64,000 nucleotides of DNA. It comes from Neofusicoccum parvum. Its lineage: Eukaryota; Ascomycota; Dothideomycetes; Botryosphaeriales; Botryosphaeriaceae. The notes below the pieces were generated by a model that was given only the letters and a program-made list of their open reading frames with translations, was not told the origin of the DNA and made no database searches. Position numbers and translations under genes: made by a program. Positions 17,744-47,580 of the stretch are shown here, piece after piece. How positions within the stretch are numbered: position 1 is the stretch's first letter; each line of letters begins with the position of its first letter. The DNA lies in assembly GCA_020912385.1 (NCBI GenBank), contig CP087221.1, forward strand, positions 124,001 through 188,000, in the 5' to 3' direction.

Positions 17744-20723
<2,980 letters not shown>

Positions 20724-20728
20724 AAAAA
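20724..20728 (-). terminator. Pol III oligo-T terminator of tRNA-Pro(CGG)
   Basis: Five T in a row on the - strand, starting 9 nt after the 3' end of the tRNA acceptor stem. No run of four T occurs inside the tRNA gene or its two introns on this strand. Confidence 0.75.
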
Positions 20729-20736
20729 GAAATCGG

Positions 20737-20915
20737 GGCTCAGCCGGGGATCTGACGGTCAACTGTTAGTCAACTGGAACTCGCGCAAGGATCGAACATC
20801 GAAACTTACCGAACCCGGGGCCTGTCACAATTCAAGCGTATGAAGCTTTCAACACCTCTAAGAGGCGTGGGAGCTGGTACCCGAAGCGACAATCATACCA
20901 CTAGACCACTGAGCC
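20737..20915 (-). tRNA. tRNA-Pro(CGG) with two introns, one in the T-loop
   Basis: Exon blocks on the - strand are 20915-20880, 20829-20810 and 20751-20737 (71 nt plus discriminator C). The acceptor stem GGCTCAG pairs perfectly with CTGAGCC. The anticodon loop carries CGG (20883-20881), and the T stem CCGGG pairs perfectly with CCCGG. The first intron, 20879-20830 (50 nt), sits after position 37, the canonical place. The second, 20809-20752 (58 nt), lies inside the T-loop after TTCG. It begins GTAAGT, has a CTAAC box at 20769-20765 and ends CAG. Without it the T-loop reads TTCGATC. The insertion splits the B box, but carries its own GTTCGATCC at 20797-20789. A scan that models only the canonical intron would probably miss this gene. 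Confidence 0.85.
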
Positions 20916-29788: not shown

Positions 29789-32700
29789 TCATGGTTCCAA
29801 CCGCTCCCAATCGTGTCCAGGGTGCAAGTGTTTGAACGCCGGCATGCACATAAAACAGTAATCAAAATCGAGACATGTGCGACAATTGAATCTTGGACCG
29901 AAGATTATCTGTCCTGTCAGCCTTTCCTCTCAATGAAGCTAAGAGAGAAACATACCAATTCACACGCGTCACAGAAGGCCCCATCAGAATGCATGCGAGC
30001 AGTGACTTGAAATTTGTTATCCTTTGTCAATGGATAATCAGCGTTGGACCCTAGTTGCTTGTTCTTGTGGAATTGAGCTATCGCCCATGGTGTGAACGAG
30101 CCCAGCGGGTCGGACACTTCAACACAAGTTTCGCTTGCTCCAGCTTTGATCAATGTGTGCACCAGATCGGAGCTACCATTCCTAGCAGCCCAGTGTAAAG
30201 GTGTCCAAAGTGCCTCATTTTCTAGGAGCTTAGTAGCATGCGGAAGCTGAAGGACCCTTTGGACCATTTCGAGAGACCCTGACGCGGCTGCTGAGTGCAG
30301 AATCGTCTGCCCCTGCTCATCTTCCGCTAAGGGATCTAACTCTTGTTCGTAGAGGTAATGAAAACTTCCACACATCCACCGAGAGCTGCCCAGTGTAACG
30401 CCGTTCTCCCGTGTTTATCACATGTAGTCGATCCTTCAGGGTCTTTCTCAAAAAGCAATTTCAGGACTTTGAGGTTCCCTATGGATGCCGCTCTGTTGAA
30501 TGCTGTCAGACCACTTTTTCTTGGAATGTTGGGATCTGCTTGATATTGAAGGAGCAGCTGCATCATGGTGAGCTCTCCCTTGAACGCTGCTAAAGTAAGC
30601 GATGTCAAGCCGTACTTATTGGGGACGGAAATTGATGGTTCTGCGCCGCTTCCTAACAATAGCTCTGCTAAGCTGGGAATATTGTTGAGGACAGCGGCGT
30701 ATAGTGCTGTGGGCACAGTTTCGTCGTCCCTCGCAAGCGTTGGGTCCGCTCCAAGTTTTAGGAGCTGTGCAACCATGTTCTCACGGCCGTCTGAAATAGC
30801 GGCAATGAGTGCAGAGCCAAATATGCCGGCTTCCACGTTGGGGTCGGCGCCCCAGTCCAGCAGTGCGTTGAAAGCTTCCTCGTTTCCTTTCACACATGCC
30901 GCTTGTAATGCAGTCCCATAAGCGCCTCCTATTTCATCGAGACGGGTTTCTGGCTGGTCTTTGAGAGCCTTCATTGTCGCAGTAAGGTTGTGTTGAACGG
31001 CGCGAGAAAGTAGGACACCGCTGTCCTCTTAGATTGCTGCTATTGAGAGCTATATAAATATCTCATGGCAAAGAGGACGCGTAATCAAAAGAGGCTGTGC
31101 TGCGTACGAGGAAGGGGTGGAGTGATGGTGGTGTGGTGATAAGAAGAGATATTACGAGACACGTGATTGCGGGCCAATGCGGTTGACAGGTTGAATAAGG
31201 ACGCATAGTACAAAGGCCCACCAGCCTTGCTCGTACGATGATCGATTCTCGGCTCTGTGAGAGAATGTAGCTGGCGCCAAGAGCGGAAGCATAACGTCTG
31301 TCGCAAAAAGAGCCGATTGACGCAATCGATCACGTCCGAATCTTCTCCACCGGCTGCACAGACATGGATGGGCCATGAAGTTGTAGCATACTTCCGGAAT
31401 CCCGAATCCAAAAGCTTCCAGACTGCTTCGTTGCTGACAAATTTGAGACAAATCTTTGCGAGGATTATGTGTTGAGAGCGCACATCAGGTAACGAGAGGT
31501 TATTTTGTATAGATGATGCGTCTGATTGCGGAGGCAAGAGTATGTAGTCTCTGGCTGATGCGTGGACGATGTGAACCGTTCGAGTCCCAGGTGAGCAGTC
31601 CAATCCAGACGTGCGAATCTCAACAAATGAGCCACACAAACGTTTGATACCCCGGTTGATGTATCCCTCGGTGACGAAAGGGTTGTCGTCTAGATCGAGA
31701 TCCTCGGGTTCCATATTGGCGTCGACCAGCAGAGCTTCGGTAAGCTCTGAGACCGTAAGAGGTCTGAAAGCAAATGCAGCCCAACGCAGAATAGCAATAG
31801 CCCGCTCTTGATCATCCTCAGAGAGGTTCCAGATCTCTTTCCAGGTACGCTCATAAGTTTGGTAGAGACCCTTTGGCATTTTGCTAATGACCTTCTGGAG
31901 TGCAGCCTTGCTCTTGTAATCTTCTAGCTGAGGCTCTTGCATCTTGACCCATAAGAACATACCGCCGGCTTTCTCAACCATCTGGTTAGCAAGATCGTTT
32001 CTCAACTTCGCTTGCTGACTAGGCAGCTTTTTGTTCACAATGTGATCGGAAAATTTGGTGATATCAAGCCTGACGTCCTCCTCCGAGAGGCCATATTCGA
32101 GTAGAACTGGATCTGTGGAGCCAGCCATGGCTGAGGATATCTCTGGGGAAATGTCAACCCGACTAGTGATGAGGACGCGCGTATTCGTGTGAGCAATTGT
32201 TGTCATCAACGTTTCAAGCAGCTCTCCTCGAAGATTTCCTGAACGCTCGAACTCATCGAGCCCATCAAGAGTAAGAGTGCAGCCTCGTAACTTTGAGAGT
32301 ATTGATTTGAGAACCGCCTGCATTTTGACTTGTGATGCGACTACTTCTGTAGAGCCCAATGCTGTCAAATGCTTCCATACGACTTCATGGGCGACTGGAC
32401 TTTGGCGTGTCAACTGCGAAATCCAGATCCGCATGACAACATCTGGCTTCTGTCCCGCCTGCACGTACGCGGAACAAAATGCATATGCAGTCAAATATTT
32501 TTCTCGCAAGACTTCCACTATTCGGGCGCAAAGCAGCGTCTTTCCGAATCCCGGAGGTCCATGGATCCAGAGAACTCGGCCTGTCTCAACACTTGAGGAA
32601 TCCGTAGTCGACCATGAGGTATAAGACGGATGATGGAAGATCCAGTCGCAAGTCCCGTCGAGTCGCGAGGATAGGAACTTGTCATACTCCTGATCGACTC

Positions 32701-33475
32701 GAGGGACGTTCAACCATGCATCGATTTGATTGCGTTCTGTCACGAACTTCTCCAGTCGATCGATTTCGTTGATTTGCAACCCACGAAGGGGGTCAACGAT
32801 CTCTGTAAGGACTTCTGCAGACTGCTCATCTGGTAAATCAACGTTAGAAAGGGCTTTTTAAATTGTGGCGTATGATTTACCGCTTGAAAGCTCTTCTGCA
32901 ACAGGTTCGTGAGAAAGACTTTCCAAATTCGGTGGCCTCTGAGATGGGACAAATTCGAAGAGACGGGCAACTATGGCAGCTAAATTATTCACCCGTTCCA
33001 CAAATTGCTTTCCGTGGGTAGCCCAACTCAAGCAGCATCTCAACGGGGATGGAGAACGGTGCCTTCCTCTTCTGGTGCCGTTGCCAGATCCTGGAACATC
33101 GAGGAAGAGTGATTTTGTTTGACTAGAAAGCTCTCCTGCGTGAGTAGAGTTGATTCGTAACTTCGCTTGTCTCTTTTTTAGCCAATTCGTGATATCACGA
33201 ACATTGGCGAAGTTATTCTTGACGCTTAAAAACACATCAGGGTCATCCAACCGCGGGTGGTGGCCATCTTCTAATTGTTCACCATCAAATCCAGCGTAGC
33301 AGATCCATTCTTGGAGGCGTATCCGGCTGTAATCCCAGAAGTTGAGGGCTTGACGGTATTGGCTGTCGAAGTCTCTGGCTGAGTCCAACCGCTCGTGAAG
33401 ATCAAGTAGGTCGTTCGGTAGACCAATTAGGCCAACCGCCAATCCGGTCGCATTCACCATGTTGTTTGACAGCAT
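29789..33475 (-). CDS. HeLo-like/NACHT/ankyrin/ZZ STAND protein, frameshift in ankyrin part
   Basis: Exons: 33475-32881, 32829-31156, 31027 to about 29955, and 29908-29789. Residues 1-200 (GLAVGLIGLPNDLLDLHERL at the start) resemble HeLo-like prion-inhibition domains of fungal NLR-type proteins. The second exon has the NACHT NTPase with Walker A GPPGFGKT and Walker B LTLDGLDEF, then the helical STAND region. The third exon holds at least seven ankyrin repeats (for example GRTALHWAALGG, WTPLHWAARNGSSDLV). The last exon completes a ZZ zinc finger with CDACEL, FNCRTCLDFDYCFMC and HPGHDWERLE. Such proteins act in fungal non-self recognition and programmed cell death. The reading frame breaks near 30361-30364, where one T seems to be missing from GTTTTC; both sides read well as ankyrin repeat. 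It may be a mutation or a sequencing error. Confidence 0.82.
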
Positions 33476-47439: not shown

Positions 47440-47580
47440 GGCCTAATGGTCTAGTGGTATGATTCTCGCTTTGGGTTTACTTTCTCATACTTGCGAGAGG
47501 TCCCGCGTTCGGTAGGCTTTGCGTTCAATCCATCAAGCGAGCGAGCACGAACTAACAGTTACTAGAGTCGCGGTTGGGCC
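47440..47580 (+). tRNA. tRNA-Pro(UGG) with two introns, one in the T-loop
   Basis: Exon blocks are 47440-47475, 47492-47511 and 47566-47580, the same 36/20/15 nt pattern as the tRNA-Pro(CGG) gene at 20.8 kb. The acceptor stem GGCCTAA pairs with TTGGGCC (one G-U). The anticodon TGG is at 47472-47474, and the T stem CCGCG pairs perfectly with CGCGG. The first intron (47476-47491, 16 nt) is after position 37. The second (47512-47565, 54 nt) interrupts the T-loop after TTCG. It begins GTAGGC, has CTAAC at 47552-47556 and ends TAG, and its removal gives the loop TTCGAGT. Inside it, GTTCAATCC at 47523-47531 resembles a B box. A decayed copy follows directly. Confidence 0.87.

Follow-up and report, generated by a model that had tools for sequence, protein, structure and literature searches.

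Among the closest described systems are introns in U6 and tRNA introns in unusual places. The U6 small nuclear RNA (snRNA) of fission yeast is an RNA polymerase III (Pol III) transcript that carries a spliced intron of the mRNA type (PMC10484740), and such introns in U6 form the closest precedent for the genes treated here. As described in PMC3978253, the ectopic tRNA introns of Cyanidioschyzon merolae often interrupt the A and B boxes, and this organism is thought to transcribe without TFIIIC. For tRNAscan-SE 2.0, the search for noncanonical introns is described for the archaeal mode, where it works via bulge-helix-bulge (BHB) models (PMC8450103). In the open-licence literature, we found no published account of tRNA genes with spliceosomal introns. 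Here, we describe tRNA genes of the ascomycete Neofusicoccum parvum that are interrupted by introns of the mRNA type. Judged from the DNA, it is very probable that these are functional nuclear tRNA genes split by U2-type spliceosomal introns and that those split in the T-loop are transcribed via a B box lying within the intron. It is also likely that these introns should be counted as a third class among those of nuclear tRNAs, removed from Pol III precursors by the major spliceosome and essential for decoding proline, with the T-loop intron bearing the replacement for the B box that it splits.

The starting point was a 64,000-nt stretch of one contig, referred to as the window, in which a first-pass annotation had described a tRNA-Pro(CGG) gene with an mRNA-type intron in its T-loop (Table 1). 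That claim is supported by our analysis, while the genome-wide class to which the intron belongs, the other tRNAs and other positions involved, the intronless paralogs, and the B-box-like element had all been missed. ARAGORN is blind to the precursor but calls tRNA-Pro(cgg) once the 58-nt insertion at 20809-20752 is excised, so the proposal that excision yields a complete tRNA held. After excision, the acceptor stem GGCTCAG/CTGAGCC pairs at 7 of 7 positions and the T stem CCGGG/CCCGG at 5 of 5, and the T-loop reads TTCGATC, all as first described. The ordinary 50-nt intron after position 37 (20879-20830), likewise part of the original description, is reported by ARAGORN as i(37,50) when the T-loop intron has been removed. 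Counting against a working tRNA, the minimum-energy fold of the joined 71-nt tRNA-Pro(CGG) was not a cloverleaf and was no more stable than shuffles (z -1.15, with 28 of 200 shuffles as good). Because the tRNA B box covers positions 52 to 62 (PMC3978253), an insertion at 57/58 interrupts it; in the tRNA-Pro(CGG) sequence the A box is intact and the native B box is split. Neither ARAGORN nor Rfam at gathering scores detected a tRNA in the window, although two tRNA-Pro genes are present. It follows that, with these programs as run, proline tRNAs may look missing in the annotations of related fungi. Elsewhere in the window, a long open frame at 31085-32779 on the minus strand looks NACHT-type-like when judged by eye and contains a GPPGFGKT motif.

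Table 1. Coordinates of the tRNA-Pro genes of the window, their parts, and the mRNA introns used for comparison
Feature	Position	Strand	Description	Basis
tRNA-Pro(CGG) gene	20737..20915	-	179 nt including its two introns; 121 nt minus T-loop intron; 71 nt minus both	Sequence, ARAGORN
T-loop GT-AG intron of tRNA-Pro(CGG)	20752..20809	-	58 nt, between positions 57 and 58	Sequence; site common to 14 tRNA genes
5' splice site of T-loop intron	20804..20809	-	GTAAGT	Sequence; GTAAGT in 13 of 22 such tRNA introns
B-box-like element within T-loop intron	20788..20798	-	TGTTCGATCCT, proposed TFIIIC site	
Branch-site sequence of T-loop intron	20765..20769	-	CTAAC	CTAAC in 21 of 22 introns
3' splice site of T-loop intron	20752..20754	-	CAG	17 CAG and 5 TAG among 22 introns
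Canonical tRNA intron after position 37	20830..20879	-	50 nt	ARAGORN cgg i(37,50)
A box	20898..20908	-	TGGTCTAGTGG, intact	Sequence; A-box positions 8-19 as given in PMC3978253
T5 run	20724..20728	-	Pol III terminator-like, starts 9 nt past acceptor stem	Sequence
tRNA-Pro(TGG) gene	47440..47580	+	With T-loop GT-AG intron and 16-nt anticodon intron	
T-loop intron of tRNA-Pro(TGG)	47512..47565	+	54 nt, GTAGGC...CTAAC...TAG, internal TTCAATCC	
ATP sulfurylase intron	17966-18045		80 nt, GTCAGT, CTGAC, CAG	
ATP sulfurylase intron	18312-18362		51 nt, GTGAGC, CTGAT, CAG	
ATP sulfurylase intron	18515-18566		52 nt, GTATGT, CTGAC, CAG	
ATP sulfurylase intron	19122-19170		49 nt, GTAAGT, CTAAC, CAG	

The signal pattern GTTCR/GTRNG..CTAAC..AG/A occurs at two places in the window against 0.01 expected from shuffles, and both are T-loops of tRNA-Pro genes, the CGG gene and the TGG gene. 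Over the whole genome, the same pattern gave 17 matches versus 15 for a reversed-pattern control and did not rise above that control, and with the branch site relaxed to CTRAY there were 37 matches for the pattern and 37 for its reversal. Strict and relaxed patterns pooled mark 33 distinct places, 13 of which are tRNA T-loops; relaxing the branch site added no tRNA gene. It is the surrounding tRNA that sets the tRNA places apart. A T stem with 5 of 5 pairs flanks all 13 tRNA places versus 1 of the 20 others, and that single place, L131, is held together mostly by G-T pairs (GTTTG/TGGGC). A genome-wide search with GGTTCRGTAAG gave 27 matches, 8 of them known tRNA T-loops, and no new gene, with 60 matches for its reversed control. 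At the level of sequence, the T-loop introns are real, beyond chance, and broader in distribution than first noted.

The genome scanned consists of 44.0 Mb in 18 contigs, and the family counts given below are of genes found. One protein encoded in the window shows 99% identity over 83% of the query to GTA08_BOTSDO02214, a protein filed under N. parvum, and the next named matches are from Lasiodiplodia and Diplodia, in line with a probable origin in the Botryosphaeriaceae. With up to 3 mismatches allowed, a pattern built on the 5' half of tRNA-Pro, which would overlook any gene more divergent than that or with an insertion in that half, identified 10 genes, namely 8 for Pro and 2 for Ala(CGC). 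Every one of the eight Pro genes (three CGG, four AGG, and one TGG) has the T-loop insertion. An intact tRNA-Pro(CGG) elsewhere in the genome, which the first-pass annotation had named as one of two joint findings that would count against its reading, was sought genome-wide; none was found, and all three CGG genes have the T-loop intron. With E up to 10, a joined Pro(AGG) query returned the four AGG genes alone, none of them beyond base 56 of its 71. Because the known CGG and TGG genes escaped it, this query is a weak negative for other anticodons, so that the absence of an intact tRNA-Pro rests mainly on the 5'-half pattern search. No Pro gene is among 49 Rfam tRNA matches from a search that scored 63 of 860 candidates and so gives an incomplete tRNA set, and the genes derived from those 63 of 860 candidates likewise include no call for Asp, Glu, Asn, or Tyr. 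As far as these searches show, the cell appears to be without any uninterrupted tRNA-Pro gene. With eight of eight genes split and no intact copy found, proline codons would be unreadable unless the introns were removed. A search for relatives gave one place among genome contigs and none among viral contigs. The one place is an intronless, eukaryote-like tRNA-Pro(TGG), perhaps a contamination, on a contig that is classed as a Haloplasmataceae (bacterial) MAG.

T-loop introns also occur in six genes for other amino acids, two for Arg(CCT), one for Ala(CGC), and three for Ala(AGC), which brings the T-loop class to 14 genes. The 13 tRNA places of the strict pattern correspond to the eight Pro genes, Ala(CGC), two Ala(AGC), and the two Arg(CCT), and the T-loop intron of the third Ala(AGC) gene (L114, C14:522960-523200, minus strand) starts with GCAAGT and has GC-AG ends. 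Alanine identity was read from the anticodon together with the G3-U70 pair, which is the Ala identity element. Three further positions are occupied in other genes or in other parts of the same ones. A GT-AG intron lies in the D-loop at 19/20 in two Ala(AGC) genes (L046 and L116), at 25/26 in all three Leu(CAG) genes found, and at 30/31 in three of five Phe genes. In total, there are 22 mRNA-type introns in 21 tRNA genes at four positions, 57/58, 19/20, 25/26, and 30/31, with the position numbering assigned by hand, and the hosts span five amino acids and eight anticodons. The tRNA-Ala(AGC) gene L046 (C4:464.5k, minus strand) has three introns, a GT-AG intron in the D-loop, one in the anticodon loop, and a GT-AG intron in the T-loop. 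Another place, L115 (C14:522110-522310, minus strand), consists of an Ala(AGC)-like 3' part following CTAATAATATTAG and resembles a decayed copy that has kept the 3' end of a T-loop intron.

Several of these introns have an empty counterpart in the same genome. For the T-arm, the Ala(CGC) gene L013 is without the intron that L012 has, and the Ala(AGC) gene L073 is without the one found in L054, L046, and L114. For the D-loop, the Ala(AGC) genes L054 and L073 provide the empty site for L046 and L116, and among the Phe genes L113 and L025 do so for L032, L111, and L112. Around the site, each empty paralog equals its intron-bearing relative minus exactly the segment from GT (or GC) to AG. Such intron-plus and intron-minus pairs for Ala and Phe would be natural material for the study of intron gain in noncoding genes. 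No intronless paralog of Leu(CAG), Arg(CCT), or Pro was found in the genome; the Leu(CAG) query was itself intron bearing, and the Arg(CCT) DNA search is weak as a negative, since it returned only its own query and failed to detect the second known Arg(CCT) gene.

Removal of the introns restores recognizable tRNAs. ARAGORN detected none of the 14 T-loop precursors and all 14 after intron removal, calling eight as Pro with the correct anticodons, two as Arg(cct), one as Ala(cgc), two as Ala(agc), and one as Thr(agt). The last is a wrong call for L046, arising at its anticodon intron, so that 13 of 14 have the expected isotype and anticodon. For five genes with introns elsewhere only, a set that left out L119 and L120, all five precursors were miscalled and four were called correctly after removal; joined L116 gave Ala(tgc) instead of Ala(agc). 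Pairing of the T stem across the T-loop intron is complete, with 65 of 65 cells paired and 11 of them changed on both sides, versus 40 to 65% paired when the T-stem partner was slid as a control. Double changes fall in three T-stem pairs, a count reached by 103 of 500 shuffles. The copy with the GC-AG intron has the T stem CGGGG/CCCCG.

These properties bear on the possibility that the split genes are pseudogenes or dying copies and that other genes supply the functional tRNAs. In favor of it, an Ala(AGC)-like place at C14:522136-522216 seems to be broken, with only its 3' part recognizable, and the tRNA set is incomplete, with 63 of 860 Rfam candidates scored. Against this, the introns are present in eight of eight tRNA-Pro genes and three of three Leu(CAG) genes found, no intact tRNA-Pro was found, and diverged copies keep their stems through paired changes. 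In the C5 copy of Pro(CGG), which shares 79% identity along the full gene, double changes in two pairs preserve the anticodon stem (GTCGC/GTGAC versus CACGC/GTGTG), and this argues against a pseudogene; the diverged Leu(CAG) genes L080 and L120 have both sides changed in three acceptor pairs. Also counting against decay, a run of at least 4 T's follows within 70 nt downstream at 20 of 23 places, including one intronless and one truncated copy; the remaining three offer only 25 to 38 nt of downstream sequence to inspect. We rejected the pseudogene reading, which we hold to be scarcely credible, on the grounds that all tRNA-Pro genes found are split, none is intact, and the stem changes are paired.

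The introns share a narrow set of splice signals. The ends are GT-AG in 21 of the 22 and GC-AG, a known minor form of U2-type intron, in one. The first six nucleotides are GTAAGT in 13, GTAAGC in 4, GTTAGT in 2, and GTAAGA, GTAGGC, and GCAAGT in 1 each, so that GTAAG is present in 18. Lengths run from 52 to 65 nt, the one intron without CTAAC (in L116) has TTAAC instead, and in the T-loop class the distance from the branch A to the intron end is 9 to 14 nt. For the window tRNA-Pro(CGG), the GTAAGT start and CAG end are as originally described; CTAAC (20769-20765) had been placed 10 to 14 nt before the intron end and actually lies 14 to 18 nt before it, with 13 nt behind the motif. The extended 5' consensus, the branch-site consensus and its spacing, and the mRNA-like length mark the 22 introns, by their sequence, as U2 type.

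The GT/GC-AG ends, CTAAC, and mRNA-like length, recurring at four positions, point to the spliceosome. The insertions might instead be ectopic BHB introns like those of archaea and C. merolae, which are cut by the splicing endonuclease for tRNA. The latter organism does have endonuclease-type ectopic tRNA introns, and many introns of the Guillardia theta nucleomorph are described as forming no defined BHB (PMC3978253). At some of the junctions here, the central helix is paired at three of four positions. However, all four central-helix pairs, flanking helices aside, occur at none of 20 junctions tested out of the 22, in a test whose positive control on three canonical introns gave no clear answer. 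The endonuclease has no need of GT/GC..CTAAC..AG, and identical mRNA-type signals stand at four different tRNA positions, both of which count against BHB introns. Moreover, fungal nuclear BHB introns are expected after base 37, whereas these lie at 57/58, 19/20, 25/26, and 30/31. We regard cleavage of these introns by the endonuclease as very improbable and favor U2-type splicing.

The likeness to mRNA introns of the window in length and signals, as proposed in the first-pass annotation, was confirmed with four introns of one gene, the window ATP sulfurylase, which were delimited by eye from an alignment with a Phyllosticta protein, at least one more intron being left out. Taken as a sample of the U2-type mRNA introns of the genome, these four (49 to 80 nt) resemble the tRNA introns in length, GTNNGY, CTRAY, and CAG, with the tRNA introns being more uniform. 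The two sets differ in host gene, in polymerase, and in TTCRR, which stands at a constant offset in 13 of 14 introns of the T-loop class. They also differ in TTTT, which is found in none of the 22 tRNA introns versus three of the four mRNA introns; 67 of 3,000 shuffle sets were without TTTT. The absence fits what would be expected of Pol III transcripts and is modest evidence for such transcription.

The TTCRR word belongs to the B-box-like element. TTC[AG][AG] starts 12 to 15 nt into the intron in 13 of 14 T-loop introns, and the exception, L048, has TTCCA, a weak B box. Among 11 of these introns in which no pair is more than 75% alike, 10 have the word at that offset, whereas 5,000 shuffle sets reach at most 5. 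In the set of 33 pooled places, which does not include the GC-AG intron, the word is so placed in 12 of 13 tRNA T-loops versus 0 of 20 non-tRNA places (Fisher p 4e-8). Taken one by one, the intronic B boxes are mostly not significant, with 32 to 1296 of 2,000 shuffles as good. We propose that the T-loop intron carries a working TFIIIC site. It could also be that the introns are spliceosomal and real and that the intronic TTCGA, far from being a working B box, was left over from a duplicated T-arm or arose by chance. The element does resemble the T-arm itself, L048 is without a good one, and the word stands at the same offset in one of eight tRNA introns outside the T-loop (L116) and in one of the four mRNA introns. 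Promoter supply could, furthermore, differ at five Ala(AGC) places that have an external B box downstream. A perfect GGTTCAATTCC lies 10 to 11 nt downstream of L046, L054, L114, L115, and L116 and is absent after L073; it resembles the external B box of yeast U6. L116 has both the external box and an intact native box, and so the external box is not strictly tied to a T-loop intron. A relic or chance origin of the intronic word is nonetheless unlikely, given that its offset of 12 to 15 nt is fixed in nearly all T-loop introns, including those otherwise unalike, and is not seen at the non-tRNA places.

From the DNA we infer the following course, including the spliceosome as the agent of removal, the binding of TFIIIC to the intronic box, and the succession of events. 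Pol III would transcribe the gene from the A box plus, in the T-loop class, the B box inside the intron, the latter being used because insertion at 57/58 splits the native box. The nuclear spliceosome would then excise the GT-AG (once GC-AG) intron through the branch site CTAAC and thereby restore the T-arm, and the tRNA endonuclease would separately excise the ordinary intron after position 37. Should RNA data bear this out, it would break the textbook rule by which introns of nuclear tRNA genes occur only after position 37 and are removed only by the endonuclease. The supply of tRNA-Pro would depend on the machine that splices mRNA, and translation, Pol III transcription, and the spliceosome would be mutually dependent. 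It would also raise the question of how modification of the T-arm, processing of the ends, and export are delayed until splicing is complete.

Compared with the canonical introns after position 37, the introns described here likewise interrupt nuclear tRNA genes and co-occur with them in the same genes, but they differ in position, in splice signals, and in showing no complete BHB in the 20 junctions tested. They share with the ectopic introns described for C. merolae, the Guillardia theta nucleomorph, and Thermoproteales archaea (PMC3978253, PMC8450103) a location outside position 37 and the possibility of several introns per gene. In those descriptions, the C. merolae and archaeal introns are tied to the BHB, whereas here there are conserved mRNA-type signals and a B-box-like element in the intron. 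The U6 introns of fission yeast and other fungi are alike in being mRNA-type introns in a Pol III transcript. The N. parvum genome itself has a U6 snRNA gene (L083, C2:2956570-2956668, minus strand) with a 61-nt GT-AG insertion and two other U6 places (L081 and L082) without one; GCGTTCGATCCCC is found downstream of L081. U6 is, however, a component of the spliceosome with an intron close to the catalytic bases, whereas the tRNA hosts have no part in splicing, their introns occupy four positions, and the T-loop class has a promoter-like box inside the intron. We propose that the introns of these N. parvum genes are U2-type spliceosomal introns whose host is of a new kind, to which a promoter element borne by the intron would add a new twist.
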